A stretch of 34,292 nt of DNA, from positions 1-34,292 of the forward strand of contig DBMK01000269.1 of NCBI GenBank assembly GCA_002298885.1, written 5' to 3'. Numbering within the stretch: position 1 is the stretch's first letter; each line of letters begins with the position of its first letter. The translations under genes were made by a program, and so were the position numbers. Source of the stretch: Anaerolineaceae bacterium UBA700. GTDB lineage: Bacteria; Chloroflexota; Anaerolineae; Anaerolineales; Anaerolineaceae. Shown in pieces: positions 9,558 through 29,510 of this stretch. The notes beneath the pieces were generated by a model. That model ran no database searches and was not told the origin of the DNA. It was given only the letters and a program-made list of their open reading frames with translations.

Positions 9558-12068
9558 CTATGGGTTATTTTTCGCCAGTGTGCGTGCCTCTCCCGCATTC
9601 CGCGTCGCCAAAACCTTCTGTGCAAACACCTGCGCCTCGCCATAATCCAGCTCGCGCACGATGGACTTGATGCGCGGGATGCCGGCGGAATTGAGGCTCA
9701 GCTCGTCCACCCCCAGGCCCACCAGCACCGGGGCGGCCATTGGGTCGCCGGCCAGTTCGCCGCACACGCCAACCCATTTGCCGCGGGCGTGGGCCGCTTC
9801 CACGACTTTCTTGATCAGCGCCAGCACCGCCGGGTGCAGGGCGTCGCTCAGGTAGGTCAGCGCCGGGTTGCCGCGCTCGGCCGCCAGCGTGTATTGGGTC
9901 AAATCGTTGGTGCCGATGCTGAAAAAGTCGACGTGCTCGGCCAGGCTCTCGCTGAGCAGCGCCGCCGCCGGGATTTCGACCATGATCCCGGTCTGGATCG
10001 GCCACTGGTGCTCGATCTCGGCCTCCGTCAGCTCGCGGTGCACGTCGTCGACGAACTGCCTGGCCTGCAGCACCTCCTCGATGCTGGCCACCATGGGGAA
10101 CATGATCCTGAAATTGCCTTCCGCGCCGGCCCGCAGCACCGCCCGCAGTTGGGTCTTGAACAGCTCGGTCTCCTTGAAGCACAGGCGGATGGCACGCACG
10201 CCCAGGAAGGGGTTGGACTCGGCTGGCTGGTTGAGGTAGGGCAGCTCCTTATCGCCGCCCGCGTCCAGCGTGCGCACGATCACCGGCAGGCGCTTCATCG
10301 TCTTGGCGATGGCGGCCAGCGCCTGGTACTGCTCGCTTTCGTCCGGGGGCGTGGTGCGGGTCAGGAAGAGGAATTCGGTGCGCAGCAGGCCGATGCCCTC
10401 GGCGCCGTTGTTGAGTGCCATCTCGGTGTCCTTGAGACTGCCAACGTTGGCCACCACTTCCACCCGGTGCCCATCCCGTGTGATTGCCAAATCCTGGCTG
10501 CTCTGCTGCAGCTCCTTGAGCCGTTCCAGCCATGCCTGGCGCTGGGCTTGCAGTTCGGCCAGCTTTTCGCCGCTGGGGGTCGTCCACACCCGGCCGCTGA
10601 ACCCATCAATGCCGATGGTCGTATCCACCGGCGCCGCCTCCAGGCTCTGGCTGGCCCCGGTCACCGCCGGAATGCCCATCGCCCGCGCCAGGATGGCGCT
10701 GTGCGAGGTAGGCCCGCCAGCCACGGTAATCAGCCCCAGGATTTTCCCCATATCCAGCGCCGCGGTCTGGGTGGGGGTCAGCTCGGCCGCAAATAAGATT
10801 GAAGGTACTTTCAGTTCCGGGGTCTCGACTTCAGCCTTGCCAGCCAGGGCGTTCAGCACCTGGTCTCCCAGGCCGGTGATGTCGGCGGCCCGCTGGCGCA
10901 GGTAGGGGTCTTCCAGGTCCAGGTAGCTCTTTTTGACCGCCCCGATGGCTTGATCCCAGGCCGCCGCCTCGTTGAGCTTGTTCTCAAAAATGAGCCGGCG
11001 CGCCTGCTCCAGCAGGTCCGGGTCCTGTAAGATCAACAGGTGTGCGTCGAAGATGGCCGCGTTGCCTTCGCCCAGGCTGCGCGCCACCAGCTTGCGCTGC
11101 TCGCTCACCGACTTTTGCACCAAGGCAATCGCCTGCTGCAAATGAGCCCAGGCCGCTTCGGGGTTGGCGGTCGGCTCGGTAGGCACCACGGGCAGGGCGC
11201 TGCGCATGTGCGCCAGCGGTCCCACCGCGTACCCTTCGGAGATCGGCACAGCCTGCAGGTAGCCATCTCCGGCTTCGGCTGGGGCCGGCGTCTGCGGCGC
11301 GGCTGCAACCGGCACGGCTGCGCTGGTCGGCTCACCAAAGGCCTCTTCAACCAGCCGGCTGAGCGCATCGAGCGCCTTTTGCCCCTCGCGTCCGCTGGCC
11401 AGGATAGTGATCTTATCCCCGCCAACAGCCCCCAGCGTAGCCAGACTGTTCAAGCTCTTGGCCTGAACCGGCCCCTTGCCGGAAGTCTCATTGATAACCT
11501 GGATGTTGGCGTCGAAGGAAGCCGCCATCTGCACGAAGCGCGCCGCCGGGCGGGCGTGCAGCCCGTGCTGGTTCTTCAATACCAGGGTTACCTTCTGGCT
11601 GCCTTCGAGCGGCGCTTCGACTGGCGCCGCGGCTGTGGTCGCTGCTGGCGCTTCCTCAGGCAGGCCCAACTGCTCGCGCTTTGGCTGCAGCGCCTGCAAG
11701 GCCTCTTTGCACACAGTCTCGGCGTCGCTGCCCAGGCCGATCTGCACCGCCGCGGCAATGCTGCCCTCCACGATGGGCGCGCCGCAGAAATGCACTCCCG
11801 CCGCCATCTCCGGCGGCAGCAGGTCCAGCGCCATCTGGGCGCTGAGGATGGCGCTGCCCAGGTCCATTAAAACGACTACTCCCGCAGGGGAGTAGACGGA
11901 TTGGATGGCTTCCATGATTTGAACTGCGTCCGTCCCAAATTCGCTCCGGTCCGAGCCGACGCCGGCCGCGGTTGCCAGGGGGAACTCCGCGTTGGCAACC
12001 TGGCGCACCAGCTCGCGGAGCGAATCCGCCAGGGCCCGGCTGTGCGAGACGATCACCATTCCAACCAT
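9558..12068 (-). CDS. dhaM: DhaM-HPr-Enzyme I fusion: PEP-dependent phosphoryl donor for dihydroxyacetone kinase
   Basis: The 836-residue protein carries three PTS modules. Residues 1-135 are the EIIA-Man-like DhaM domain with active His9 in VIVSHS. After an Ala/Pro linker, residues 158-245 are HPr with His171 in GLHARPA. From about 270 to the end is a complete Enzyme I: phosphohistidine His456 in GGPTSHSAILAR, the PEP-binding barrel (GIGLLRTEF, GGDKELPYL, FFSIGTNDLTQY) and catalytic Cys769 in GVCGELAGD. It can therefore take phosphate from PEP and relay it His456 to His171 to His9 to the ADP held by DhaL. E. coli DhaM has the same module order, but its EI portion is only a fragment. The gene is the last of the glpA-sdhBCD-dhaM unit, 13 bp after the second anchor gene, while its partners dhaK and dhaL lie 6 kb upstream. 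Confidence 0.93.
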   Translation of the reverse strand: MVGMVIVSHSRALADSLRELVRQVANAEFPLATAAGVGSDRSEFGTDAVQIMEAIQSVYSPAGVVVLMDLGSAILSAQMALDLLPPEMAAGVHFCGAPIVEGSIAAAVQIGLGSDAETVCKEALQALQPKREQLGLPEEAPAATTAAAPVEAPLEGSQKVTLVLKNQHGLHARPAARFVQMAASFDANIQVINETSGKGPVQAKSLNSLATLGAVGGDKITILASGREGQKALDALSRLVEEAFGEPTSAAVPVAAAPQTPAPAEAGDGYLQAVPISEGYAVGPLAHMRSALPVVPTEPTANPEAAWAHLQQAIALVQKSVSEQRKLVARSLGEGNAAIFDAHLLILQDPDLLEQARRLIFENKLNEAAAWDQAIGAVKKSYLDLEDPYLRQRAADITGLGDQVLNALAGKAEVETPELKVPSILFAAELTPTQTAALDMGKILGLITVAGGPTSHSAILARAMGIPAVTGASQSLEAAPVDTTIGIDGFSGRVWTTPSGEKLAELQAQRQAWLERLKELQQSSQDLAITRDGHRVEVVANVGSLKDTEMALNNGAEGIGLLRTEFLFLTRTTPPDESEQYQALAAIAKTMKRLPVIVRTLDAGGDKELPYLNQPAESNPFLGVRAIRLCFKETELFKTQLRAVLRAGAEGNFRIMFPMVASIEEVLQARQFVDDVHRELTEAEIEHQWPIQTGIMVEIPAAALLSESLAEHVDFFSIGTNDLTQYTLAAERGNPALTYLSDALHPAVLALIKKVVEAAHARGKWVGVCGELAGDPMAAPVLVGLGVDELSLNSAGIPRIKSIVRELDYGEAQVFAQKVLATRNAGEARTLAKNNP

Positions 12069-12081
12069 AGAGGCCTGCTTT

Positions 12082-12462
12082 CTAGCCTGCCGCGCCTTTC
12101 GAAGCGATGGCCAGGATCAACCAGATTCCGTAAACGATTGCCGCCAGGCCAACCACCATGAAGAGCCAGTTGATGCCGGTGAGCACGGCGCGGGTCGGCT
12201 TAAGGTCCAGCAGGATGCCGCGCAGCCCGATCAGCGCATGCGAGACGACGAAGACCACGAACAGGATCTCCATGATCGGGATGATCGGATTCTGGTAATA
12301 CTTGATCACGTCTGCATAGGAGAGCAGCCCGGTGGGGGCTACCAGATGGTTGACGACGAAATGCACGCCGAGGATGACGATAATCAGCACCCCCGTGGCC
12401 GCTTTAATAAACCACAGCCAGGTGCCTTCGCCAGATTTGGGTCCGTAGAGCGATTTTTCCAT
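12082..12462 (-). CDS. SdhD-like membrane anchor subunit (cytochrome b type)
   Basis: This 126-residue protein has three membrane helices. The third-helix-side motif SHALIGLRGILLDLKPT (His75) matches the SdhD heme-ligand segment HAWIGMWQVLTDYVKP of E. coli. Two further histidines, His34 and His39 (GVHFVVNHL), lie in the first helix and could ligate a second heme, as in two-anchor, diheme type A enzymes. AAAGGA precedes the start. It is fourth in the operon after glpA, the sdhB-like gene and the sdhC-like gene, with a 40-bp gap from the last. Its expected role is quinone reduction together with the SdhC-like subunit, taking electrons from the iron-sulfur subunit. Confidence 0.82.
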   Translation of the reverse strand: MEKSLYGPKSGEGTWLWFIKAATGVLIIVILGVHFVVNHLVAPTGLLSYADVIKYYQNPIIPIMEILFVVFVVSHALIGLRGILLDLKPTRAVLTGINWLFMVVGLAAIVYGIWLILAIASKGAAG

Positions 12463-12502
12463 AGGAGTTTCCTTTACCCGTTTCGAGTTCCGAATGCCGC
12501 CA

Positions 12503-12895
12503 TCACGCCCCGAACATGCGCACGGCGAAGTACAGGCTGATGACCACGGCGATCGAAATCAGCCCGATCAGCAGTTGTTTCTGGTAGCGGTTGCCGATCC
12601 CCAGGCTGTTCAAGACGATGCGAATGCCGTTCAGACCGTGCATGACGCCGGCAGTCACCACCAGCACTTCCCCAAAGGTGAACAGGGGGTTGTGAATGGT
12701 GGCGATGAAGTTATCATAACCGCCAGGGCCTCCAGCCAACTGGCTGAGGACGATGAGGTGCATGGACAGGTAAAGGGTGAGGCCCAGTGCGGTAATGCGG
12801 TTGAGGATGAACCCCAGATAATTGACCGAGCGGGCGCGCGGGTCGAACCATTTGACGGCCCGGATCAAGGGGGATTGCCTGGTGATTTCGCTCAT
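12503..12895 (-). CDS. SdhC-like membrane anchor subunit (cytochrome b556 type)
   Basis: The 130-residue protein has three predicted helices. RITALGLTLYLSMHLIVL (His46) and GVMHGLNGIRIVL (His86) are the classical heme-ligand regions of SdhC-type anchors; the second corresponds to YHVVVGIRH in E. coli SdhC. The N-terminal RSVNYLGFILNR is like the segment that packs against the iron-sulfur subunit. The start overlaps the stop of the iron-sulfur gene as ATGA, with GGAGG seven bases upstream. This strict coupling supports one complex. Together with the SdhD-like protein it should bind quinone and probably two b hemes. Confidence 0.83.
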   Translation of the reverse strand: MSEITRQSPLIRAVKWFDPRARSVNYLGFILNRITALGLTLYLSMHLIVLSQLAGGPGGYDNFIATIHNPLFTFGEVLVVTAGVMHGLNGIRIVLNSLGIGNRYQKQLLIGLISIAVVISLYFAVRMFGA

Positions 12896-13665
12896 TTGCT
12901 GGCCTCCATCGTGTCGATTTTCTTTGCAGTTGAACCGCCAAATAGTCTTCTAAAGCGTGTCGCAATCGCCTGTTTGCGCAGGTCCATAATCCGCCAGCCG
13001 GGGTCCACATTTGACGGGCAGACCGCGGTGCATTCGAAGGCGCTGTGGCAGCGCCAGATGCCGTCCTCGCAGTCGACCAGCCGGTACACTGCCTCGTCGT
13101 TCTGGATCCCGTGCTGGTGCGCGCCGGCCAAAACCGCCGGACCCAGGTATTCCGGGGAAGAGGCGGTAATCGGGCAGGCGCTGATGCACAACCCGCACTC
13201 GATGCAGTCCGAAAGGCGGATGAAATCCTCGCCGCGCTGCACCGGCCCGGCGGGCCGCAGCTCTGGTTGGATGGCTTCGTTGCAGTCCGAATTGACCGAA
13301 CGCTGCCCCACCTTGTCCATGCGAGTGTACAGAACCCCCATGTCCACCGCCAGGTCGCTGACCACCGGGAAATTACGCATCGGCTCTACCTTAACCACCC
13401 CGCCGTCGTGGGTAACGTCTTTAATGGGGGTGATGCAGGTCAGCTTTTCGACCCCGTTGACGCGCATACCGCAGGCGCCGCAGGTGGAATGGTGGCAGGC
13501 GTGCCGGAAGACCAGCGTGCGGTCGTGGTAAGCCCAGATACGCTCGACCGCATCCAGTACATATTCGTCCGGATCGACCTCTAGCTTGAAATTATCAAAA
13601 TGGGGGGATGCTTCTTCCTTTTTTCGCGATACTTGGAAAGTGACGTTCCACTTGGTCTGGCTCAT
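12892..13665 (-). CDS. SdhB/FrdB-like iron-sulfur subunit, linked to GlpA rather than SdhA
   Basis: The 257-residue protein shows the complete SdhB cysteine pattern. The N-terminal [2Fe-2S] domain has Cys57, 62, 65 and 77 (CHHSTCGACGMRVNG). The C-terminal domain has Cys154, 157, 160 and 164 (CIECGLCISACP) and then Cys206, 212 and 216 (CHSAFECTAVCP), as expected for [4Fe-4S] and [3Fe-4S] clusters. It is not GlpC, which has CCG domains and no plant-type [2Fe-2S] domain. The AAGGAG site and start lie 10 bp after the stop of glpA, and no sdhA is present in the window. The inferred role is to carry electrons from the FAD of GlpA to the heme/quinone anchor. A shared use with an SdhA encoded elsewhere cannot be excluded. 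Confidence 0.88.
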   Translation of the reverse strand: MSQTKWNVTFQVSRKKEEASPHFDNFKLEVDPDEYVLDAVERIWAYHDRTLVFRHACHHSTCGACGMRVNGVEKLTCITPIKDVTHDGGVVKVEPMRNFPVVSDLAVDMGVLYTRMDKVGQRSVNSDCNEAIQPELRPAGPVQRGEDFIRLSDCIECGLCISACPITASSPEYLGPAVLAGAHQHGIQNDEAVYRLVDCEDGIWRCHSAFECTAVCPSNVDPGWRIMDLRKQAIATRFRRLFGGSTAKKIDTMEASK

Positions 13666-13675
13666 TGAAGGCTCC

Positions 13676-14842
13676 TTAATTGTTCTGGTAATAAGCGCGG
13701 TATGAAAGCAGTGGCGTATCTTTGGTCGTGCAAACGGCTTGTATGCCCAGCTTGGCGCAAACCATGTCGGCCGTTTTTTCCGCCATTTGCCGCAGAGTCG
13801 TGGCTTTTCCGCCGGTAATGGTTACCAGTCCTTCAATGCCATCCGATTCTTTATGGTCGAAGCATTTAAACGTGCGGGCGATGCTGCGTCCCGCCGACCC
13901 CTTGCCGATCAGCGGGCGGGTGGCCATGTACACGCCGCGCGGGTTGGCCTTGCGGATGCCCGGCACCAGCTCCGAACCGCGTTCCAGCATCATATTGACC
14001 TGTTCGTCGACCACCGGCACGTAATCCAGGTCGGTCACCGAGAAGCTTGACGTTCCCACCACTAGCATACGGCGCTGTGGCACGATAATGTCGCCATCGC
14101 CGGGTTTGTTCAGGCGATTGACGCAGCGCTGGACCAGGCGCTGGTCGTAGGCCACCATCACACCCGGGGTGGGGTTGATCGGCACGTGGGCGCCAGCTTG
14201 GGAAGTAATCTCGCCGACCCAGGCGCCGGTGGCGTTGACCACCATGTCCGCATACAGCTCCTCGCGCACGTTCGAAGCCCGGTCCAGCACCTTTACGCCC
14301 TTAACGTTGCGCTGGCCGTCGATAATTAGCTGTTCCATCTCGGTAAAGGTGCGGAATTTGGCGCCGTTCTTTTTGGCCGTCCCCGCAAAAGCCAGCGCCA
14401 GGCGCAGTGGATCGAACGTCCCGTCCGGCACGGTAAAAGCGGCGATCACCCCCGGGTTAATGTTGGGCTCCATTGCCAGGACCTGTTTGGGTGTGAGCTG
14501 CTCGATCGGAATGTGGCAGGCATTGCAGCCCTCGATGAAATCCTCGGCGAAAGCCAGGTCGCTGTCGTCGAGGGCGATGAACAACCCGCCGTTGGGCTCG
14601 ATGACCTGCGGCACGATCTTGCGCAAGATCATGTTCTCGTCGATGCATTCGATGGCGGATTCCTGGTCGCTTACGGCGTAACGCCCCCCGCTGTGCAGCA
14701 ATCCGTGAGTCCTCCCCGAGGTGCCGTTGGCGATATCGCCGCGCTCAACGACCGTAACATCAAAACCGCGTAAAGCCAGGTCGTGAGCCGTGGCAACCCC
14801 CGTAAAGCCGGCCCCAATCACAATTACTTTCGGCTTACTCAT
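13676..14842 (-). CDS. glpA: FAD-dependent glycerol-3-phosphate dehydrogenase, GlpA type without the BFD domain
   Basis: This flavoprotein oxidises sn-glycerol-3-phosphate to DHAP. It has an N-terminal FAD dinucleotide fold (VIVIGAGFTG, then VVERGD) and the GlpA/GlpD substrate region SGRTHGLLHSGGRYA. The DAO core continues to LVTITGGKATTLRQMAEKTAD. It stops shortly after CTTKDTPL, where E. coli GlpA (CTTADTAL) continues into a BFD-like [2Fe-2S] domain, so the 388-residue protein lacks that module. No GlpB or GlpC is adjacent; an SdhB-like gene follows after 10 bp. The second ATG (14840-14842) is chosen because AAGGAG is seven bases before it; the first ATG is only one base from the same site. 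It heads the operon behind a promoter-like TATAAT. Confidence 0.9.
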   Translation of the reverse strand: MSKPKVIVIGAGFTGVATAHDLALRGFDVTVVERGDIANGTSGRTHGLLHSGGRYAVSDQESAIECIDENMILRKIVPQVIEPNGGLFIALDDSDLAFAEDFIEGCNACHIPIEQLTPKQVLAMEPNINPGVIAAFTVPDGTFDPLRLALAFAGTAKKNGAKFRTFTEMEQLIIDGQRNVKGVKVLDRASNVREELYADMVVNATGAWVGEITSQAGAHVPINPTPGVMVAYDQRLVQRCVNRLNKPGDGDIIVPQRRMLVVGTSSFSVTDLDYVPVVDEQVNMMLERGSELVPGIRKANPRGVYMATRPLIGKGSAGRSIARTFKCFDHKESDGIEGLVTITGGKATTLRQMAEKTADMVCAKLGIQAVCTTKDTPLLSYRAYYQNN

Positions 14843-14902
14843 AGACATACTCCTTGCGTAATTTATTCAGAACATTGTGCAGGATTGTCTGATCTATTCA
14901 CA

Positions 14903-14946: not shown

Positions 14947-15528
14947 TTAATCGGCGCAGCTCGGGCAGGACGAGACTTCGTGGACGTACTCGAATACGGC
15001 AGGGGTTAATTCCTCAGCCGGGCCGGGAATGAAACCTGCCGCCCCGCACCAGCAGGCATACCAGCCCATCTTCACAGCTTCAAACGGCACGCGCTCCGCA
15101 TGCAGGTCGATTACTTCCACCCCCATCCTCCAGCGCGCATTGGTGATCAGCCGCCGGCAGCCTGCGTCCTTCAATTTTGCAGCGAACTGCTTGAAATGAG
15201 TGCAGTGGCGCATCAACAGCACGCCAACACTAATATCGCTCGGAAAAGGGAGCCGTAGCGCGTCGCCGCACACAACAGTCAGGTTGAGCGGCAGGCCCAG
15301 CGAAGGTTTGGACAACGCGCGGCCGATAATATCAGAATGAATTTCGATTGCCAGAACCCGACGTGCGATGGGCGCCATCTGCCGCGCCAGGCGCAGGTCC
15401 CCGGCGCCAATTTCAAGCACGCAATCGTCCGCCCGGATGGCCTGCAGGACGATATCGTACGTCGGCTGGTCGTAGGGAGCCCACATCAACTCCCAGTTTG
15501 AATTGCTCCGCAGCAAATCCACGTCCAT
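14947..15528 (-). CDS. Class I SAM-dependent methyltransferase-like protein
   Basis: The 193-residue protein has SAM-binding motif I VLEIGAGDLRLA at about residues 36-47, an acidic motif II residue in VLAIEIHSDII, and a GDALRLPF motif typical of motif III. The second half is unusual, with several cysteines (CWCGAAG and a final CPSCAD), so a metal site is possible. The substrate is unknown. A GGGGA site precedes the start weakly. The gene lies between the small membrane-protein gene and glpA on the same strand, but the glpA promoter-like region separates it from glpA. It is probably unrelated to glycerol metabolism. Confidence 0.7.
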   Translation of the reverse strand: MDVDLLRSNSNWELMWAPYDQPTYDIVLQAIRADDCVLEIGAGDLRLARQMAPIARRVLAIEIHSDIIGRALSKPSLGLPLNLTVVCGDALRLPFPSDISVGVLLMRHCTHFKQFAAKLKDAGCRRLITNARWRMGVEVIDLHAERVPFEAVKMGWYACWCGAAGFIPGPAEELTPAVFEYVHEVSSCPSCAD

Positions 15529-16003: not shown

Positions 16004-17503
16004 TTACTGCTCCACCCATTCGAAGGTGCGGGTGACGGCTTTCAGCCAGCCCTTGTAGTGTTTGTCGCGGTCCTTGGGGGCCATCTTGGGATCCCATTCC
16101 TTGTCCTTGCCCCAGTTGGCACGCAGGTCCTCGACCTTGGCCCAGAAGCCGACTGCCAACCCGGCGGCATAGGCCGCGCCCAGAGAGGTGGTCTCGGCAA
16201 CTGTCGGGCGGATAACCGGCACGCCCAGGATATCGGCCTGGAACTGCATCAGCAGCTCATTGTACACCATGCCGCCGTCCACTTTGAGGGCGGTCAGGTT
16301 CACGCCGGAGTCTTTGTTCATGGCGTCCAGCACTTCGCGGGTCTGGAAGGCGGTGGCTTCCAGGGCGGCGCGGGCAATGTGGCCCTTGTTCACATAGCGG
16401 GTCATGCCCACGATGGCGCCGCGGGCGTCGCTCTTCCAGTACGGAGCGAACAGGCCGGAGAACGCCGGGACGAAGTAGATGCCGCCGGCATCGTCAACCG
16501 TCTTGGCCAGGGCTTCCACATCCGCCGATTTGGCGATCATGCCCAGGTTGTCGCGCAGCCACTGCACCAGGGCGCCGGTGATGGCGATAGAGCCTTCCAG
16601 GCAGTACACAGCCGGCTGGTCGCCGATCTTGTAGCCCAGAGTGGTCAGCAGGCCGTTCTTGGACTGCACTGGCTTGGTGCCGGTGTTGAGCAGCATGAAG
16701 CAGCCGGTGCCATACGTGTTCTTGGCTTCGCCGGCGCTGAAGCAGGTCTGCCCGAACAGAGCCGCCTGCTGGTCGCCCAGGTCGCCCGCCACCGGGATGC
16801 CTGCGAGGTCACCCACTGCCTTGCCGTACACGGCGCTGGAGGGCATGATCTTGGGCAGCATGGCTCGCGGAACGCCCATGATCTTGAGGATCTCGGGGTC
16901 CCAGTCCAGCGTCTCGAGGTTCATCAGCATGGTGCGGGAGGCGTTCGAAACGTCGGTGACGTGCACGCCGCCGTGAACACCGCCGGTCACGTTCCAGATC
17001 ACCCAGGTATCGATGTTGCCGAACAGTACTTCGCCTTTTTCAGCTTTGGCGCGCACGCCGGGGACGTTATCCAGAACCCACTTGATCTTGGGGCCGGAGA
17101 AATACGTTGCCAGCGGTAGGCCTACCTTCGGGCGGAAGCGATCCTGCCCGCCGTCCTTGGCAAGCTCGTTGCAGATTTGATCGGTTCGGGTATCCTGCCA
17201 TACGATGGCGTTGTACACCGGTTTGCCGGTCGCCTTGTCCCAAACCACCGTCGTCTCGCGCTGGTTGGTGACCCCAATCGCCGCAATGTCCTTCGGATCG
17301 ACATGCGTCTTGGCCAATGCGCCTTTGATCACTTCCTGCGTGCGCTCCCAGATCTCCATCGGGTTGTGCTCGACCCACCCTGGCTTCGGATAGATCTGCT
17401 CGTGTTCCTTCTGGTCCACGCCGACTACCTTGCCGCTGTGGTCGAAGATCATGAAGCGAGTGCTGGTGGTACCCTGATCTATTGCACCTGCATACTTAGC
17501 CAT
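16004..17503 (-). CDS. glpK: Glycerol kinase
   Basis: This cytoplasmic FGGY kinase (499 residues, the usual length) phosphorylates glycerol to sn-glycerol-3-phosphate with ATP. Phosphate loop DQGTTSTR is at 9-16. Glycerol-binding Arg82-Glu83 ([10 protein letters not shown]), Tyr134 and catalytic base Asp244 ([14 protein letters not shown]) correspond to E. coli Arg83, Glu84, Tyr135 and Asp245. The segment before the catalytic Asp ([16 protein letters not shown]) lacks the YHFYG histidine that HPr phosphorylates in many Firmicutes, so direct PTS activation of this kinase is not expected. AGGAG lies eight bases before the start. The gene is last in the glpF-dhaK-dhaL-glpK unit. Its product feeds the GlpA complex encoded 1 kb downstream. 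Confidence 0.97.
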
Positions 17504-17554: not shown

Positions 17555-18190
17555 TTAGCTGTTGGCCCAGGTTTCGGCGGCTGCATTGAGGATCAAGAAC
17601 GAGGATGTTGCCCCAGGATCCTGGTGATTGGCGCTTCTTTCACCGAGGTAGCTGGCGCGTCCTTTGCGGGCAACCAGGGGAGTCGTGCCTTCCATGCCCG
17701 CTTTAGCTGCGTCAGCGGAAGCCCGCAGCGCCGTGCCGATCGCCTGTTTTTCGCTGACGGCCTGCTTGAGCGCCTTGACAGCGGGGGTCAGCGCATCGAC
17801 CATGGTTTTGTCGCCCAACTCAGCTTTTCCGCGCATGATCACGCCGTTCAAAGCGGCGTCGAGCGCGTTATACCAGTCTTCCAGAGTTAGCTCCATCTTC
17901 CCGGCAGTCTTCGTTCCTGCCTGGATGAAGAATGTGCCGTATAGAGGACCTCCGGCTCCTCCGACCGTGGACAGGAGCGTCATCCCGACCGTCTTAAATA
18001 TGGTGCCGATGTCTTTGTCGCTCATCTCCGGCATCTTATTCATCACAGCCTGGAAACCCCGGTCCATGTTTGCGCCGTGATCGGCATCGCCGATGGCGGC
18101 ATCTAGCTGGATAAGATAGTCCCGGTTTTCGGCGAGAACTTTCGCGCAGGCCTTAATCCATTCCAATGCATCATCGCGGGCAACAGGCAT
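17555..18190 (-). CDS. dhaL: PTS-type dihydroxyacetone kinase, ADP-binding subunit DhaL
   Basis: The 211-residue subunit holds the ADP that is rephosphorylated in place by DhaM and passes phosphate to dihydroxyacetone on DhaK. The Mg-binding aspartates Asp30, Asp35 and Asp37 in LDAAIGDADHGANMDRG have the same numbering as in E. coli DhaL. The glycine-rich TVGGAGGPLYGTFF segment and the later SYLGERSANHQDPGATS motif are also present. GGAG precedes the start. It sits between dhaK (72 bp upstream, with a hairpin between) and glpK (51 bp downstream). The phosphate donor DhaM is not adjacent but lies in the glpA operon. Confidence 0.95.
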   Translation of the reverse strand: MPVARDDALEWIKACAKVLAENRDYLIQLDAAIGDADHGANMDRGFQAVMNKMPEMSDKDIGTIFKTVGMTLLSTVGGAGGPLYGTFFIQAGTKTAGKMELTLEDWYNALDAALNGVIMRGKAELGDKTMVDALTPAVKALKQAVSEKQAIGTALRASADAAKAGMEGTTPLVARKGRASYLGERSANHQDPGATSSFLILNAAAETWANS

Positions 18191-18262: not shown

Positions 18263-19264
18263 TTACACGCCCCAACGCAGGCCGGGCGTCTTCACCGGAG
18301 CGTCCCACAGCTTGAGGAGCTGATCGTCCATCTTGAGCATGGTGATCGAGGTGCCCGCCATTTCCAGGCTGGTGATGTAGGGACCGATCAGGTTCCGCAC
18401 CACTTTGAGCCCGTGTTTGGTGGCGATCTCGTAGGCCTTGCGATAGACGATGTACTGCTCGACCAGCGGGGTTCCGCCCATGCCGTTGACGAAGATGAGC
18501 ACGTTGTCGCCGGCTTTGTAGGGGATGTCACTGAGGATGGGCTCCATCAGCATTTCGACGATTTCGTCCGCCGATTTGACCGGCATGCGCTGCCGGCCTG
18601 GCTCGCCGTGAATGCCGATGCCGATTTCCATCTGGTCTTCCGGCAGGTCGAAGGTGGGTTTCCCAACGTGCGGGACGGTGCAGGAGGTGAGCGCCATGCC
18701 CATGCTGCGCCCCCAGCCCTTTACCTTGCGGCAGACGTCGGCCACTTCCTTGAGCGACATGCGCTGTTCGGCGGCCGCGCCGCAGACCTTTTCGGCAAGC
18801 ACCGTGCTGCCGACGCCGCGGCGACCGGCGGTGTACAGGCTGTCTTTCACGGCTACGTCATCGTCGATGATCACTGCTTCGACCGGGATGTCCTCTGCTC
18901 TGGCCAGGTCGGCGGCCATTTCGAAGTTCATGATATCGCCGGTGTAGTTCTTGACGATGTGCAGCACGCCCGCTCCGCCGTTGATGGCTTTGGTGGCTTC
19001 GAGCATCTGGTCCGGTGTAGGTGAGGTGAAGACCGCGCCCGGGCAGGCTGCATCCAGCATGCCCATGCCGACAAATCCACCGTGCATTGGTTCATGCCCG
19101 GAGCCGCCCCCAGAGAGGACGCCAACTTTGCCTTTGACGGGGGCATCGGCGCGCACGACATAGTTGGGATTGAAATGGATTTTGACCAAATCGGGATGAG
19201 CGAAAGCTACACCCTCCAGCTCTTCTTTTACGACGTCTTCGGGTTTGTTGATAAGCTTTTTCAT
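18263..19264 (-). CDS. dhaK: PTS-type dihydroxyacetone kinase, substrate-binding subunit DhaK
   Basis: The 333-residue subunit binds dihydroxyacetone covalently through a histidine hemiaminal. That residue is His219 in GIGIHGEPG, matching His218 of E. coli DhaK. The other conserved pieces are [16 protein letters not shown] (51-66), [10 protein letters not shown] (106-115) and VNGMGGTPL (259-267). AAGGAAGG precedes the ATG. The presence of a separate dhaL, and of DhaM in the neighbouring operon, makes this the PEP-dependent rather than ATP-dependent type. It lies 64 bp downstream of glpF. The source of dihydroxyacetone is not encoded here, as no gldA-like glycerol dehydrogenase is seen. Confidence 0.96.
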
Positions 19265-19328: not shown

Positions 19329-20132
19329 TTATGATGCTTTGTCCTTAACAGCAGCCGTCACGAACCAGTCATACGTATAGCCGCCAATCACGCCGCCGAT
19401 CAGGGTCATGATCACAGGCGGAACCAGCCAGTAGATGCCGTCGAACAGGCCCTTGGTCCCGACCACCAGGCCGAACAGGCGGGGGCCGAAATCACGGGCA
19501 GGATTGATGGCGTAGCCGGAGGGGCCGCCCAGCGAGAGGCCAACCGCCAGCACCGTACCGCCGACCAGGAATGGGCCCAGGTTGTGCATCAAGCCCAGGT
19601 TCTTCGAGTCGCCGGAGGCCAGGATGCCCCACATCAGCACCATGGTGCCAAAGAGTTCTGAGATGCAGGCGTTCAGCAGGCTGTAGGGAGTGCCCGAAGT
19701 GCCGGCTGCCGCCGTGCCGCCCCAAAAGGCTTGTCCGAAGACCGAGCCCGGACCCGTGCACCACACGTTGGGGAGACCAGCGCCGTTCAAGCCATCCATA
19801 TAGACCAGGTAGACGGCCAGAGCGCCAAGGAAGGCACCCACGATTTGAGCGATCCAGAAGGGGACGACCTTGCCCCAGGCGAAGCCGCGGCGCACCGCCA
19901 GCATCAGGGTGACTGCCGGGTTCAAGTGCGCGCCGGAAACGCCGCCGGAGACATACACGGCCACGATGACTGCGAACGCCCATCCGAACGTGATGGTGTT
20001 CCAGTTATACGCCGGAGCTGCCAGACGAGGCGCAAGACCGACATTGGCAACAACGCCATCACCTAACAAGATGAGGATAAAGGTACCGAAGACCTCACCG
20101 ATTAGTTCTTTCGTCAGACTCATTTGTTTCAT
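19329..20132 (-). CDS. glpF: Glycerol facilitator (MIP family aquaglyceroporin)
   Basis: The 267-residue inner-membrane channel has six main helices and two half-helices with NPA motifs at 71-73 ([11 protein letters not shown]) and 210-212 ([11 protein letters not shown]). The Asp214 after the second NPA, and the selectivity Arg213, are the marks of glycerol-conducting GlpF rather than water-only aquaporins. AAGGAG and GAGG sites precede the ATG at 20130-20132. It is the first gene of the glpF-dhaK-dhaL-glpK unit. Upstream, on the same strand, are a leader terminator and a consensus promoter, so expression is probably controlled by readthrough. It supplies both glycerol and, plausibly, dihydroxyacetone. 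Confidence 0.95.
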
Positions 20133-23363: not shown

Positions 23364-26300
23364 ATGAAACACAATATCAGTCGTTTCATCAGCCAGAACC
23401 GGTATATCGTGGCCGTGGCTGCCATTCTGGTTATCGCCGCGGGCATCTACCTGGCCTGGCGCGCCGTCCAGCCGCAGGGGAATGGCGGACACATCGTTCC
23501 CATCCAGGTCGGGGGGACCGGTCAAACAGGAGGCCTATCCACTATGGGAAGCGTTCTTTCATTGGCGTCCTTCCGGCTGAGCGAAGGCAAGGCTCAACCC
23601 CAGTCCGTAACACCTGTCCCGCTGGCAGCCGGCGACCCGCTTTCGCCCCAGGAGATCCAGCAGATTCTATCCCGCCTGCCGACCCTTACCGTCGACCCGG
23701 CGACCCAGGTCGATTTCAAGCTGCCCAAGGACCCCATCCCCCCGCCGCGCCCCGGGCAAACGATACCCCAGGCCTTTCCGCCGGCCGAATCGGCTCCGCC
23801 GGCGACGGTGGAGACCGGCCCCCTGGAAGTGCTGCGCTATTCGCCCGAAGGCGAAATCCCCATTGCCCCGTTCATCAACATCACCTTCAACCAGCCCATG
23901 GTGGCCCTGGATACGGTGAGCGACCTGGCTGCCGGGGCCGTGCCGGTGCAGATCGAACCGCCCCTGCAGGGCACCTGGCGCTGGCTGGGAACCAAGACCC
24001 TGAACTTCCAGTATGATTCGACCTTGATCGACCGCCTGCCCAAGGCCACCAACTATCATGTCACCATCCCGGCCGGCACCAAATCGGCCTCTGGCGGCGC
24101 GCTGGCCAAGACGGTGGAATGGAGCTTCAGCACCCCGCCCCCCAAGATGGCCTTCACCTACCCGGATAACCAACCCCAACCCCGCAATCCTTTATTCTTC
24201 ATCCAGTTCGACCAACGCATCGACCCGGCCGCCGTCCTGGGCCACATCCAGGTGACGGCAGGAAACCAGCGCCCCAGCATGGCACTGGTGGACGAGGCGT
24301 CCATCAAAGCCGATGACAAGCAGAAATGGCTGCTCGCAGACGCAAAGGAAGGTCGCTGGCTGGCCTTCCGGGCCAAAGAGGAACTGCCGGCGGATTCGGA
24401 GGTAAATGTTGTCGTTGGGGAAGGCACGCCATCCGCAGAAGGCCCACTGGTTACCGCAAGCGCCCAATCCTACTCCTTCCGCACCTACGCCGCCCTGCGC
24501 GTCGAAAATTCCAACTGCACCAACGGCAACGACTGCCCGCCGCTCTCCCCGTTCTACATCGGCTTCAATAACCCCATCGACGAAAGTGCGGTGACGGATG
24601 CCATGGTCAAGATCGACCCCGAGCTGCCGGGGGCGGTAGTCAACATCTTTGGTAATTCGATTCAAATCCAGGGCGCCAGCAAGGGTCAGACCACCTACAC
24701 GGTCACCTTGAGCGCCGATTTCCAGGACGTCTTCGGCCAAAAGCTCGGGCAGGATACGCAGGTAGTCTTCCACGTCGGCCAGGCCGAAGCCATGTTGTAC
24801 GGCCAGCAGGGGAATTTCGTCACCCTCGACCCGGCCGCCAAAAAGCCGGTCTTCACCGTTTTCACCATGAACCTCAAGGCATTGGACGTCAAAGTTTACG
24901 CCGTCCAGCCGGGCGATTATCCGGGATTTAAGGATTATCTGCGCAATTACTACCAGAATACGGTCAAAACCGGGGCGCCCGGGCGCCTGGTGCTGGATAA
25001 ATCGATGCCGATCGAATCGCCCAGCGACACCTTGAACGAGGTGGACATCGACCTGAGCAGCCTGATGGATGGTCCCTTCGGCCACTTCATCGTCATCGTC
25101 ACCCCGCCCAAGGCGCTGCTGGACAGCAACCCCAACCGCTACTGGCAGAACGTCATCGCCTGGGTGCAGGTGACCCAGATTGGCCTGGACGCCTTCAATG
25201 ATCAAACCGACCTGGTCGTGTGGGCCTCGGCGCTCAAAGACGGCGCCCCGCTCGAAGGGGTTGCTATTTCGGCCGGCCCCTCTGGGACTCAGGTGGCCTC
25301 CACCGGTGCTGACGGCACGGCTCGCCTCGCGATCCCCAACGGCGCCAGCTACCTGGTCGCCAGCCGGGGCGCCGACCAAGCCATCCTGCCGCGCAGCCCC
25401 TACCCGTGGAGCGACGAGACCTGGAGCCGAAACTCGCAGGTCGATGAGCTGCGCTGGTACGTGTTCGACGACCGCCAGATGTATCGCCCGGGCGAGGAAG
25501 TCCACTTCAAGGGCTGGCTGCGGCGCATCGGCGCCGGACAAAATGGCGATGTGGGCCTGGTGGGCGGCGCTGTAACTTCGGTGAGCTACCAGGTGATTGA
25601 ATCCCAGGGCAATGTGGTGGGCAACGGCAGCGTGCAGGTCAACGCCCTGGGCGGATTCGACTTCGTGTATAAGATCCCGGATGCCATCAACCTGGGCTAC
25701 GCCAGCCTGAACCTGACCGCCAACGGCGGGGGCATGAACGGCATGCAGTTCGGCCATTCCTTCCAGGTCCAGGAGTTCCGCCGGCCCGAGTTCGAGGTGA
25801 CGGCCCGTCACGAGACCGAGGGACCGTACTTCGTCGGCTCGCAGGCCACGCTGGCGGTGGACGCCAATTATTACGCCGGCGGCCCGCTGCCCAACGCAGA
25901 CGTGACCTGGCAGGTGACCTCGTCGCCAGGGCAGTATTCTCCGCCCAACTGGCCCGATTTCACCTTCGGCACCTGGGTCCCCTGGTGGTCCCGCTACGGC
26001 GTTAGCGATGTTTATGTCAAAGGATTCCCGCCCGGAGGCTCGCAGGGCAAAGTAGAGACTTTCAGCGGCAAGACCAACGCCGGCGGCAGCCATTTCCTGC
26101 AGGTGAATTTCGATTCGCTAGGCGGCCTGCAGCCGGTTAGTGTGGTCGCCGAGGCCACGGTAATGGACGTCAACCGTCAGGCCTGGTCCGGCAGCACCAC
26201 GCTGCTGGTGCATCCCGCCAGCTTGTACGTGGGCCTGCGCGGCGACAAGATTTTCGTCGACCAGGGCACCCCGCTGAAGATCGATTTTATCGTCACCGAC

Positions 26301-29300
26301 CTGGACGGCAAGCCGGTGGCCGACCGCCCGGTGGAGGTGAAAGCTGCCCGCCTGGAATGGAAGTACACCAATGGATCCTGGCAGGAAATGGAAGCCGACG
26401 TCCAGACCTGCAGCCAGGGCTCCAAGACTGAGCCTTCTACCTGCACGTTTAACACCCCCATCGGCGGCAGCTACCGCATCACCGCCACGGTGAGCGACGA
26501 GCAGGGCCGCCAGAACCAGAGCCAGCTCACGCGTTGGGTCAGCGGCGGCAAAATCCCGCCGGCGCGCAACGTCGAGCAGGAGCAGGTAACCCTGATACCG
26601 GATAAGAAGACTTACCAGCCCGGTGACGTGGCGCGCATCCTGGTCCAGTCGCCGTTCAGCCCGGCCGAAGGCCTGCTCACGGTCAGCCGCAGCGGCATCT
26701 TGTATACCCACCGCTTCTCGCTGCCGGAAGGTTCGGCCACGCTCGAGGTGCCGATTGAGGATCGCTTTGTCCCCAACCTGAACTTGCAGGTGGACGTGAG
26801 CGGCTCGGCGCCGCGCACCGACGACCAGGGCCAGGCCCTGCCCGGCGTGCCGGCTCGCCCGGCATACGCCAGCGGGCAGTTGGACCTGAGCATCCCGCCT
26901 CAAACGCGCACCCTGGCGCTCGAAGTTAATCCCGACCAGAAAGAACTTGAACCAGGCGGCGAGACCACCCTGCACGTCACCGTCAAGGATGCTAAAGGCC
27001 AGCCGGTCTCTGGCTCCGAGGTGGCAGTGGTGGTGGTTGATGAATCGATCCTGGCGCTGACCAATTACGCCAGCCCGGACCCGCTGAGCGCCTTCTACAC
27101 CGAACGCTACCCGGAACTGGCGAGCATCTACGCCCGCGCCAGCCTGGTGCTGGCAAATCCGCTGGCCCTCACCGGCCAGGCCGGCGATCACACCCAAAAT
27201 GAAATGGCGCTGAAAAGCGTCGAACGGCAAGCCGCCGGCGCGGCCGCCCCCATGGCCGCTCCAGCAGCAACATCGGCTCCGGCAGCCGCCCAGGCACCGG
27301 CCATGGACAGCTTCTACGGCGGAGCCAATGCTCAAGGAGCCTCCACGCCCATCCGCGTGCGCATCGACTTCAATCCCCTGGCCACATTTGCCGCCGCCGA
27401 ACAGACCGACGCCGGCGGGAACGTGCAGGTGCAGGTGAAGCTGCCAGACAACCTCACTCGCTACCGCGTGATGGTGGTGGCGGTGGACGGCAGCGGCAAG
27501 CAGTTCGGCGAGGCCGAGACCAGCCTGTTGGCCCGCCTGCCGCTGATGGTGCGTCTCTCGGCGCCGCGTTTCCTCAACTTCGGGGATAAGTTCGACCTGC
27601 CGGTGGTGCTGCAGAACCAGACCGACGCCGCCATGAGCGTGAACGTGGCCGTGCGCGGCACCAACATCGCCCTCACCGGTAGCCAGGGCCTGAAGGTGAA
27701 TGTCCCGGCGCGTGACCGGGTTGAAGTGCGCTTCCCGGCCGCCACCCAGATGGCCGGCACTGCCCGGCTGCAGGTCGCGGCCGTTTCAGGGTCGGCGGCA
27801 GATGCGGCCAACGCCGAGCTGCCGGTCTACACCCCGGCCACCTCCGAAGCCTTTGCCACCTACGGCGTGATCGACTCGGGTTCCGTCCTGCAGCCGGTGG
27901 CGGCGCCTACCGGTGTCTTCGCTCAGTACGGCGGGCTGGAAATCACCACTTCCTCCACCGCCCTGCAGTCACTGACCGACGCCGTGCTCTACCTGGTGTC
28001 CTATCCTTTCGAATGCACCGAGCAGCTATCCTCCCGCATCCTGGCGGTGGCTTCCCTGCGCGACGTGCTGACGGCTTTCAATGCCCCCGGGCTGCCCTCG
28101 CCGGCCGAAATGGAAGCAGCCGTGAAGAGCGACATCGAGCGCCTGAGCGCCCTGCAGAACGACGACGGCGGGTTCCCCTACTGGCAAAGGGGCAAGGAAT
28201 CCATCCCGTTCAACACCATCCATGCCGTCCATGCCCTGTACCGGGCCGGCGCCAAGGGCTTCAGCGTGCCTGCCGACGTGCAGCAGCGCGCCCTGGCCTA
28301 CCTGCAACAGATCGAGAGCCACTATCCCTCCTGGTACGGCCAGCACACCCGCTGGACGCTGAGCGCCTACGCCCTCTACGTGCGCAACCTGATGGGCGAC
28401 CGCGATCCGGCCAAAGCGCTGAAGCTGCTGAATGACGCCGGGCTGGACAAGCTGCCCATGGAAGCCATCGGCTGGCTGTGGCCGGTGCTCAAGGATGCCC
28501 ACGATGCCGCCGGGCAGCTTGATGCCATCCGCCGCTTCGTCAATAACCACACCGTCGAAACCGCCGGGGCGGCCAACTTCACCACCAGCTACGACGAGCA
28601 AAGCTACCTGCTGCTCTCCTCCGACCGCCGCACGGATGCGATCCTGCTGGATGCGCTGATCGGCGACAACCCCAAGAGCGACCTGATCCCCAAGGTGGTT
28701 AACGGCCTTCTGGCGCACCGCACCGCCGGGCGCTGGGACAACACCCAGGAAAACGTGTTCGTGCTGATTGCCCTGGACCGCTACTTCAACACCTTTGAAG
28801 CCCAAACGCCGGATTTCGTGGCCAAAATCTGGCTGGGCGAGACCTACGCTGGCAGCTCCGAGTTCAAAGGCCGCACCACCGAGCGCCACGAAACGGATAT
28901 CCCCATGTCCTACCTGGTGGACCCGGCCAAGGGCGGCGGCGCAACCCAGAACCTGATCCTGAGCAAGGACGGCGATGGGCGCCTCTACTACCGCCTGGGC
29001 CTGCGCTACGCCCCCACCGATCTGGACTTGAAACCGCTGGACATGGGTTTTGTGGTCGAGCGCGTTTACGAAGGGGTGGATAACCCCTCTGACGTTACCA
29101 AGGATGCCGACGGCGTGTGGCACATCAAAGCCGGGGTGCGGGTGCGGGTGCACCTGACCATGGTGGCGGATAACCGCCGCTACCACGTAGCCCTGGTCGA
29201 CCGCCTGCCGGCGGGCCTGGAGATCGTCAACCCGGCGCTGGACGTCTCGCAGAGCATCCCGCAGGACCCGAACAGCCCGGATTACCGCTACGGCTGGTGG

Positions 29301-29510
29301 TACTGGGGCAGTTGGTTCGAGCACCAGAATCTGCGCGACGACCGGGCTGAAGCCTTTACCTCGCTGTTGTGGGACGGCGTCTACCAGTACACCTACATTG
29401 CCCGGGCCACTACCCCCGGCCGGTTCATCGTTCCGCCCGCCAAGGCCGAGGAGATGTACTCCCCCGAGACGTTTGGTCGCAGCGGCAGCAACGTCGTCAT
29501 CGTCGAATAG
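23364..29510 (+). CDS. Large bacterial alpha-2-macroglobulin with intact thioester motif
   Basis: The 2048-residue protein is anchored by an N-terminal helix (about 13-31) with the rest outside the membrane. Ig-like domains occupy about 150-480. The MG2 region begins near 698 (RQMYRPGEEVHFKGWLRR), with further MG domains after it. An Ala/Pro-rich stretch at about 1290-1315 is a likely protease bait segment. The alpha-2-macroglobulin core (about 1330-1430) is followed by the thioester motif CTEQ at 1551-1554 and an alpha-helical thioester domain, then a terminal MG domain (about 1920-2048). The family traps proteases by bait cleavage and covalent coupling. It is longer than E. coli YfhM (about 1650), mostly through the N-terminal domains. 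The usual partner gene, penicillin-binding protein 1C, is not adjacent. The ribosome site is weak. Confidence 0.93.
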   Translation: MKHNISRFISQNRYIVAVAAILVIAAGIYLAWRAVQPQGNGGHIVPIQVGGTGQTGGLSTMGSVLSLASFRLSEGKAQPQSVTPVPLAAGDPLSPQEIQQILSRLPTLTVDPATQVDFKLPKDPIPPPRPGQTIPQAFPPAESAPPATVETGPLEVLRYSPEGEIPIAPFINITFNQPMVALDTVSDLAAGAVPVQIEPPLQGTWRWLGTKTLNFQYDSTLIDRLPKATNYHVTIPAGTKSASGGALAKTVEWSFSTPPPKMAFTYPDNQPQPRNPLFFIQFDQRIDPAAVLGHIQVTAGNQRPSMALVDEASIKADDKQKWLLADAKEGRWLAFRAKEELPADSEVNVVVGEGTPSAEGPLVTASAQSYSFRTYAALRVENSNCTNGNDCPPLSPFYIGFNNPIDESAVTDAMVKIDPELPGAVVNIFGNSIQIQGASKGQTTYTVTLSADFQDVFGQKLGQDTQVVFHVGQAEAMLYGQQGNFVTLDPAAKKPVFTVFTMNLKALDVKVYAVQPGDYPGFKDYLRNYYQNTVKTGAPGRLVLDKSMPIESPSDTLNEVDIDLSSLMDGPFGHFIVIVTPPKALLDSNPNRYWQNVIAWVQVTQIGLDAFNDQTDLVVWASALKDGAPLEGVAISAGPSGTQVASTGADGTARLAIPNGASYLVASRGADQAILPRSPYPWSDETWSRNSQVDELRWYVFDDRQMYRPGEEVHFKGWLRRIGAGQNGDVGLVGGAVTSVSYQVIESQGNVVGNGSVQVNALGGFDFVYKIPDAINLGYASLNLTANGGGMNGMQFGHSFQVQEFRRPEFEVTARHETEGPYFVGSQATLAVDANYYAGGPLPNADVTWQVTSSPGQYSPPNWPDFTFGTWVPWWSRYGVSDVYVKGFPPGGSQGKVETFSGKTNAGGSHFLQVNFDSLGGLQPVSVVAEATVMDVNRQAWSGSTTLLVHPASLYVGLRGDKIFVDQGTPLKIDFIVTDLDGKPVADRPVEVKAARLEWKYTNGSWQEMEADVQTCSQGSKTEPSTCTFNTPIGGSYRITATVSDEQGRQNQSQLTRWVSGGKIPPARNVEQEQVTLIPDKKTYQPGDVARILVQSPFSPAEGLLTVSRSGILYTHRFSLPEGSATLEVPIEDRFVPNLNLQVDVSGSAPRTDDQGQALPGVPARPAYASGQLDLSIPPQTRTLALEVNPDQKELEPGGETTLHVTVKDAKGQPVSGSEVAVVVVDESILALTNYASPDPLSAFYTERYPELASIYARASLVLANPLALTGQAGDHTQNEMALKSVERQAAGAAAPMAAPAATSAPAAAQAPAMDSFYGGANAQGASTPIRVRIDFNPLATFAAAEQTDAGGNVQVQVKLPDNLTRYRVMVVAVDGSGKQFGEAETSLLARLPLMVRLSAPRFLNFGDKFDLPVVLQNQTDAAMSVNVAVRGTNIALTGSQGLKVNVPARDRVEVRFPAATQMAGTARLQVAAVSGSAADAANAELPVYTPATSEAFATYGVIDSGSVLQPVAAPTGVFAQYGGLEITTSSTALQSLTDAVLYLVSYPFECTEQLSSRILAVASLRDVLTAFNAPGLPSPAEMEAAVKSDIERLSALQNDDGGFPYWQRGKESIPFNTIHAVHALYRAGAKGFSVPADVQQRALAYLQQIESHYPSWYGQHTRWTLSAYALYVRNLMGDRDPAKALKLLNDAGLDKLPMEAIGWLWPVLKDAHDAAGQLDAIRRFVNNHTVETAGAANFTTSYDEQSYLLLSSDRRTDAILLDALIGDNPKSDLIPKVVNGLLAHRTAGRWDNTQENVFVLIALDRYFNTFEAQTPDFVAKIWLGETYAGSSEFKGRTTERHETDIPMSYLVDPAKGGGATQNLILSKDGDGRLYYRLGLRYAPTDLDLKPLDMGFVVERVYEGVDNPSDVTKDADGVWHIKAGVRVRVHLTMVADNRRYHVALVDRLPAGLEIVNPALDVSQSIPQDPNSPDYRYGWWYWGSWFEHQNLRDDRAEAFTSLLWDGVYQYTYIARATTPGRFIVPPAKAEEMYSPETFGRSGSNVVIVE

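Follow-up and report, generated by a model that had tools for sequence, protein, structure and literature searches.

The glycerol operon of the Anaerolineaceae bacterium UBA700 (Chloroflexota; assembly GCA_002298885.1) raises the question of which proteins accept the electrons of a short GlpA flavoprotein that is encoded directly beside succinate dehydrogenase (SDH)-type genes. The operon lies on the minus strand of contig DBMK01000269.1, positions 1 to 34,292 of which (34,292 nucleotides) were analysed and are hereafter called the window, and it contains glpA, sdhB, sdhC and sdhD in succession. These four genes very probably encode a membrane-bound glycerol-3-phosphate (G3P):quinone oxidoreductase, GlpA-SdhBCD, in which GlpA stands in place of SdhA. 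The replacement of SdhA by GlpA had been proposed in the first-pass annotation of the window and is supported here by observed gene content and conserved gene order, the exchange of partners between two kinds of GlpA, one-to-one gene counts, phylogenetic trees and natural gene fusions.

The window glpA (13676–14848) encodes a short G3P dehydrogenase flavoprotein of 390 amino acids with a DAO fold (PF01266), which matches TIGR03377 with 440 bits, below the cut-off of 552.8 bits, the match stopping at model position 377 of 530. The Fer2_BFD domain, located at residues 432–484 of E. coli GlpA, was not detected in the window GlpA, in agreement with the earlier view that the protein ends before the BFD domain. 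The sdhB-type iron-sulfur subunit (12892–13665; 257 amino acids) matches TIGR00384 with 168 bits (cut-off 88 bits) and contains Cys 57/62/65/77 and 154/157/160/164/206/212/216. These 11 cysteines, first described as a full set, are identical in all 27 aligned rows and presumably bind a [2Fe-2S], a [4Fe-4S] and a [3Fe-4S] cluster, an assignment taken from SDHs and fumarate reductases. The two predicted membrane anchors, SdhC (12503–12895; 130 amino acids) and SdhD (12082–12462; 126 amino acids), match PF01127 (Sdh_cyt) with 50 and 39 bits, respectively (cut-off 25.8 bits), and their histidines, SdhC H46/H86 and SdhD H34/H39/H75, are invariant in 23 of 23 aligned rows. Sequence reading and family scans of the open reading frames (ORFs) in the window identified no glpB, glpC or sdhA in the operon, and E. 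coli GlpB had no match at any of the loci with this gene arrangement (hybrid loci). The gene order and the junctions, which comprise a 10-bp gap between glpA and sdhB, a 4-bp overlap between sdhB and sdhC and a 40-bp gap between sdhC and sdhD, follow from the coordinates as first annotated. The overall span had been given as 12082 to 14842, which holds for the three sdh genes but not for the start of glpA at 14848, position 14842 being the second in-frame ATG. The other readings mentioned so far, namely the absence of GlpB, GlpC and SdhA and the presence of SdhC/SdhD-like anchors with conserved histidines, stand as well.

A contig scan with the window SdhB yielded 17 loci, 16 of which belong to Chloroflexota, including those of Thermanaerothrix daxensis, Bellilinea caldifistulae and Longilinea arvoryzae. 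At these close Chloroflexota loci, glpA is located upstream of sdhB in all 14 cases with upstream sequence, and sdhC and sdhD follow sdhB as far as the sequence extends. Chance adjacency of glpA and sdhB was therefore rejected. At the 17th locus (Salsuginibacillus), an SdhA match adjoins SdhB. In an evenly sampled set of 301 Chloroflexota genomes, a window-like SdhB (E ≤ 1e-50) was found in 15, of which 13 have it adjoining glpA and sdhC/sdhD and two have it on its own, adjacent to leuS. The check for a conserved gene order in relatives, suggested in the first-pass annotation, thus came out positive both at the close loci and in the wider draw.

The same 301 genomes contain two kinds of GlpA. 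GlpA (E ≤ 1e-60) was identified in 66 of them, with 18 places at least 50% identical to the window GlpA, including a 160-residue contig-end fragment (G005) that was excluded from the short-GlpA count, and 51 places 37–45% identical to it. Sixteen loci of the short kind, one per genome, and 14 of the 51 long-kind loci were inspected. Fourteen of the 16 short glpA genes adjoin sdhB and two are solo (G040 and G264), whereas a GlpB match is adjacent at 14 of 14 long-kind loci and sdhB at none. The 37 long-type places outside this inspection include G179, with an open frame of 405 amino acids, and the long copies of G161 and G291. Fer2_BFD is present in none of the 27 short-group GlpAs (the window, 24 from Chloroflexota and two from Bacillota) and in 37 of 39 GlpB-linked GlpAs (14 from Chloroflexota, 24 from Bacillota and that of E. 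coli), and Cys 434, 436, 470 and 475 in the C-terminal part of E. coli GlpA are invariant in all 39 of the latter. At the loci inspected, therefore, glpA is accompanied by either glpB or sdhB, except for the two solo genes, and the BFD domain occurs together with glpB. In the GlpA tree, for which GlpB-linked GlpAs were trimmed to 420 residues and the E. coli protein to its first 400, 25 SdhB-linked and two solo GlpAs are separated from 43 others (39 GlpB-linked and four from plasmids) by a branch with 100/100 support; L120, L115, E. coli and L130 have long branches, which draw a program warning of long branches meeting, and their own inner placement is unsure. A single-subunit enzyme of the GlpD/GlpO type was considered for the short GlpAs and rejected, as none of the 27 short-group members matches DAO_C (PF16901) at E ≤ 0.001.

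The numbers of the corresponding genes balance. The 17 short-GlpA genomes used for counting (16 of the Chloroflexota draw plus Longilinea, G003) contain 18 short GlpAs, two of them in G259, where the neighbourhood of the second glpA was derived from coordinates. SdhA (PF02910) was found in 17 of 17; two weak PF02910 matches (G161:C15 and G018:C35), which lie away from any SdhB match, were not counted. For SdhB (TIGR00384), 37 matches over the cut-off correspond to 36 genes, with two partial contig-end matches in G146 taken as one gene. By coordinates, 18 of these SdhBs are located within 0.9 kb of an SdhA-type match, 16 lie beside a short glpA and two are solo, in G040 and G264, where glpA is solo as well, so that 36 SdhBs equal 18 SdhAs plus 18 short GlpAs; T. 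daxensis, B. caldifistulae and L. arvoryzae contain two SdhBs apiece. The search for a separate sdhA-sdhB locus, also proposed with the first-pass annotation, thus succeeded in all 17 genomes, and an orphan SdhA in need of the hybrid SdhB was found in none of them.

The SdhB tree is consistent with this bookkeeping, with 24 GlpA-linked and two solo SdhBs separated from 17 SdhA-linked SdhBs (L017 from Bacillota and 16 from short-GlpA genomes) by a branch with 100/100 support. The solo SdhBs nest among the GlpA-linked rows; L119, L120, L105 and L017 have long branches, so that their own inner placement is unsure. Furthermore, the position of the third [2Fe-2S] ligand is Cys in 21 of 21 GlpA-linked SdhBs and Asp in 12 of 13 SdhA-linked ones.

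The arrangement is also found outside Chloroflexota. Among 299 sampled Bacillota genomes, 25 encode GlpA (E ≤ 1e-80) at 26 places, two of which are hybrids, and the other 24 adjoin a GlpB match. In one hybrid (G371, locus L146), glpA lies beside a gene for a single 571-residue protein with an SdhB stretch and two Sdh_cyt stretches. The other (G469; L145, 5517–7347, also L119) has the order glpK, glpA, sdhB, followed by a gene for a protein with two CCG stretches, a GlpC-like feature seen in this one Bacillota hybrid. The third cluster motif in the SdhB of G469 contains an additional cysteine, and we take this variant to resemble type E SDH (SdhE, with a [4Fe-4S] third cluster); the CCG protein could possibly be an SdhE-type membrane exit.

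A search with the L146 protein as query identified two predicted proteins from different sources in which GlpA and SdhB are fused, and an assembly error is possible in either. P0242 (685 amino acids) consists of GlpA, a Pro/Ala-rich linker and SdhB, its GlpA part being 50% identical to that of the window over 387 columns and its SdhB part 43% over 224 columns. In P0243 (430 amino acids), a stretch of 157 residues that matches the last part of the GlpA catalytic domain continues into SdhB; the two fusions differ from each other in sequence and linker. The AlphaFold2 model of P0242, predicted with aligned GlpA and SdhB rows, has a mean pLDDT of 81.4 and a pTM of 0.84, and this pTM, reached despite a low-confidence linker and in a prediction made without a control fusion, suggests a definite packing of GlpA against SdhB. 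The nine top PDB matches of the model in Foldseek are G3P dehydrogenases or oxidases. In a second look (VIA), the two best were E. coli GlpD, and the 50 matches listed fall mainly on the GlpA half, with no SdhB entry among them. A further predicted protein, P0244 (478 residues), carries an SdhB-like part fused to a methyltransferase domain, which has no real similarity to the methyltransferase encoded in the window. Taken with the gene counts and the trees, the GlpA-SdhB fusions led us to reject a role of the window SdhBCD as a second SDH.

For complex formation, the path of electrons, the heme content and the quinone, we infer the following scheme. G3P made by GlpK would be oxidized to dihydroxyacetone phosphate (DHAP) at the FAD of GlpA, from which electrons would pass through the [2Fe-2S], [4Fe-4S] and [3Fe-4S] clusters of SdhB to a quinone, the likely electron acceptor, at the SdhC/SdhD anchor. 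SdhB and the anchor would thereby replace the BFD domain, GlpB and GlpC of GlpABC. Type A anchors carry two b hemes, and the conserved histidines of SdhC and SdhD suggest that the hybrid anchor has sufficient ligands for two as well.

The genes around the four-gene core fit a glycerol operon, with the minus-strand order glpF, dhaK, dhaL, glpK, a small ORF, a small methyltransferase gene, glpA, sdhB, sdhC, sdhD and a gene for a DhaM-HPr-EI fusion. A glpF-like glycerol facilitator gene (19329–20132), dhaK (18263–19264) and glpK (16004–17503), encoding the glycerol kinase that would supply G3P, were named by sequence reading alone. dhaL (17555–18190) matches TIGR02365 with 248 bits. The DhaM-HPr-EI fusion (9558–12068), the phosphoryl donor of dihydroxyacetone kinase with EIIA-man, PTS-HPr and PEP-utiliser domains, is encoded 13 bp from sdhD. 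A glpK match was found upstream of glpA at 14 of 14 glpA-bearing close loci and at 12 of the 14 loci in the 301-genome draw where glpA is linked to sdhB; furthermore, a glpF-like gene occupies the same operon place at L001, L002, L010, L011, L012 and L013, and dhaK is a neighbour at L001, L002, L005 and L010–L013. The small ORF between glpK and the methyltransferase gene has no Pfam match. The methyltransferase (14947–15528; PF13649) is a recurrent neighbour: class-I relatives precede glpA in L011 and L049/L063 and follow sdhD in L054/L055, and L148 has a similar ORF. Apart from the operon, a plus-strand ORF of 2048 residues (window 23364–29510) resembles bacterial alpha-2-macroglobulin by sequence reading.

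Several observations weigh against the proposed GlpA-SdhBCD enzyme. G161 and G291 carry a long GlpA besides the short one. Short GlpAs of 390–425 amino acids without an adjacent SdhB are encoded on plasmids of Rubrobacter and three haloarchaea, in a search restricted to plasmids, and no hybrid was found at the four plasmid surroundings inspected. The plasmid matches are annotated as ordinary GlpA, FAD-dependent oxidoreductase or SDH-type SdhB, and some are unannotated. On the Rubrobacter indicoceani plasmid (L115, 4989–6161), the gene for a 390-residue short GlpA without adjacent SdhB has as neighbours a dihydroxyacetone kinase gene, two genes annotated as sn-glycerol-1-phosphate dehydrogenase and FGGY kinase genes. 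In G040 and G264, the short glpA and its SdhB are encoded at separate places (L061, L062, L075 and L076) and only one SdhC/SdhD pair was seen, on the sdhA contig; therefore, SdhCD is not always dedicated to GlpA, and the anchor is possibly shared with SDH in these two genomes. As for menaquinone biosynthesis, MqnA was found in none of the 17 short-GlpA genomes and MenD over the cut-off in six, and neither was detected in the cultivated G001, G002 and G003. Lastly, we are aware of no biochemical work on this operon and of no purified member of the GlpA-SdhBCD kind, in accordance with the earlier remark that no characterised enzyme of this architecture was known.

The menaquinone markers bear on the alternative that survives best, in which GlpA and SdhB form an electron pair whose acceptor is something other than ordinary menaquinone, be it an unusual quinone, a scavenged one or, in certain lineages, an acceptor of another kind. 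Besides the MqnA and MenD counts, it draws on the CCG protein that takes the place of SdhC/SdhD in L145, but the anchor histidines are invariant in all aligned rows, genes for complex I, alternative complex III and a quinol bd oxidase have been reported in T. daxensis (PMC4653793), and a divergent MenD may escape detection, which together leave this alternative rather unlikely, if worth keeping in mind. The missing markers could possibly reflect uptake, or a pathway that is unusual or was missed. G001, G002 and G003 hold two complex II-type SdhBs each, although MqnA and MenD over the cut-off were not found there. It is very improbable that the enzyme works mainly in reverse, reducing DHAP to G3P for lipids with electrons from quinol; complex II-type enzymes are able to act as reductases in anaerobes, but the operon with glpF, glpK and dhaKLM looks catabolic and the potentials (about -190 mV for G3P/DHAP and about -74 mV for menaquinone) favour G3P oxidation. 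Still less credible is that SdhBCD serves an SDH whose sdhA lies elsewhere, with glpA a mere chance neighbour. SdhB and the anchors are indeed genuine relatives of complex II, but a different SdhB lies within 0.9 kb of each of the 18 SdhA-type genes, a fully supported branch divides the two SdhB groups, and P0242 and P0243 join GlpA to SdhB.

With GlpA-SdhBCD as the preferred reading, a broader one can be offered tentatively, to which we give somewhat less than even weight: GlpA-SdhB may be a portable electron-transfer core, apart from both GlpABC and complex II, with SdhC/SdhD, a fused SdhB-C-D protein, a CCG protein (with the additional cysteine at the third cluster) or possibly an anchor shared with SDH (G040 and G264) as exits, and in Anaerolineaceae it may operate in cells that lack a recognised menaquinone pathway, its acceptor perhaps being an unrecognised quinone. 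The findings suggest that flavoproteins of a different, DAO-type family can serve as partners to the electron-carrying half of complex II, and that the front end of a respiratory enzyme has been swapped in nature. The pairing appears to be conserved within a group of Chloroflexota and shared by at least two of the 299 sampled Bacillota genomes. The annotation of hybrid SdhBs as succinate dehydrogenase / fumarate reductase iron-sulfur subunit is likely to be misleading in metabolic models. As Thermanaerothrix daxensis, Bellilinea caldifistulae and Longilinea arvoryzae are cultivated hosts, the proposed function is directly testable.

Compared with complex II, the hybrid shares an SdhB with the full cysteine set and two Sdh_cyt anchors with conserved histidines, whereas its flavoprotein is GlpA rather than SdhA; the window SdhB is 32–36% identical to the SdhA-linked SdhBs of three cultivated relatives (tblastn). 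With E. coli GlpABC it shares the catalytic DAO domain, the window GlpA fitting TIGR03377 positions 1–377 and the hybrid GlpAs of Chloroflexota being 39–47% identical to E. coli GlpA over roughly residues 11–386 (tblastn), but the BFD domain, GlpB and GlpC are all lacking in the window system. Titles and abstracts, with subscription journals mostly uncovered, yielded no description of a bacterial GlpA-SdhBCD. It is unmentioned in PMC4574363, the word glycerol is absent from the main text of PMC11653643 and PMC4877987, and glp does not occur in that of PMC11653643. The architecture itself has already been predicted, and to this extent the first-pass annotation needs amending. In the accessible parts of a study of archaea (Schmerling et al., 2025, Commun Biol 8:539, PMC11962113), putative genes for the b, c and d subunits of SDH are described to come after glpA in Thermofilum-related genomes, GlpA-SdhBCD is named for Thermofilum pendens in the legend of Fig. 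9, and the canonical bacterial glpA is said to occur consistently with glpB and glpC, a picture to which the hybrids add a second bacterial glpA type. The same parts describe a likewise truncated GlpA with an altered membrane partner in Sulfolobus acidocaldarius, GlpA-CoxG; unlike SdhBCD, CoxG is suggested by the authors to be an anchor and not an electron carrier (PMC11962113). The Thermofilum genes have the same order, glpA, sdhB, sdhC, sdhD, as the window and its relatives, a likeness drawn from gene order. As far as the accessible text goes, that proposal is archaeal and derives from synteny and phylogeny, whereas the present set is bacterial, from Chloroflexota and Bacillota, and includes fusions and a CCG variant. 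Since GlpA-SdhBCD has already been proposed for T. pendens (PMC11962113), the window system is not wholly new; it is a bacterial branch of that kind, for which the evidence of partner exchange, gene counts, fusions and Bacillota variants exceeds synteny.

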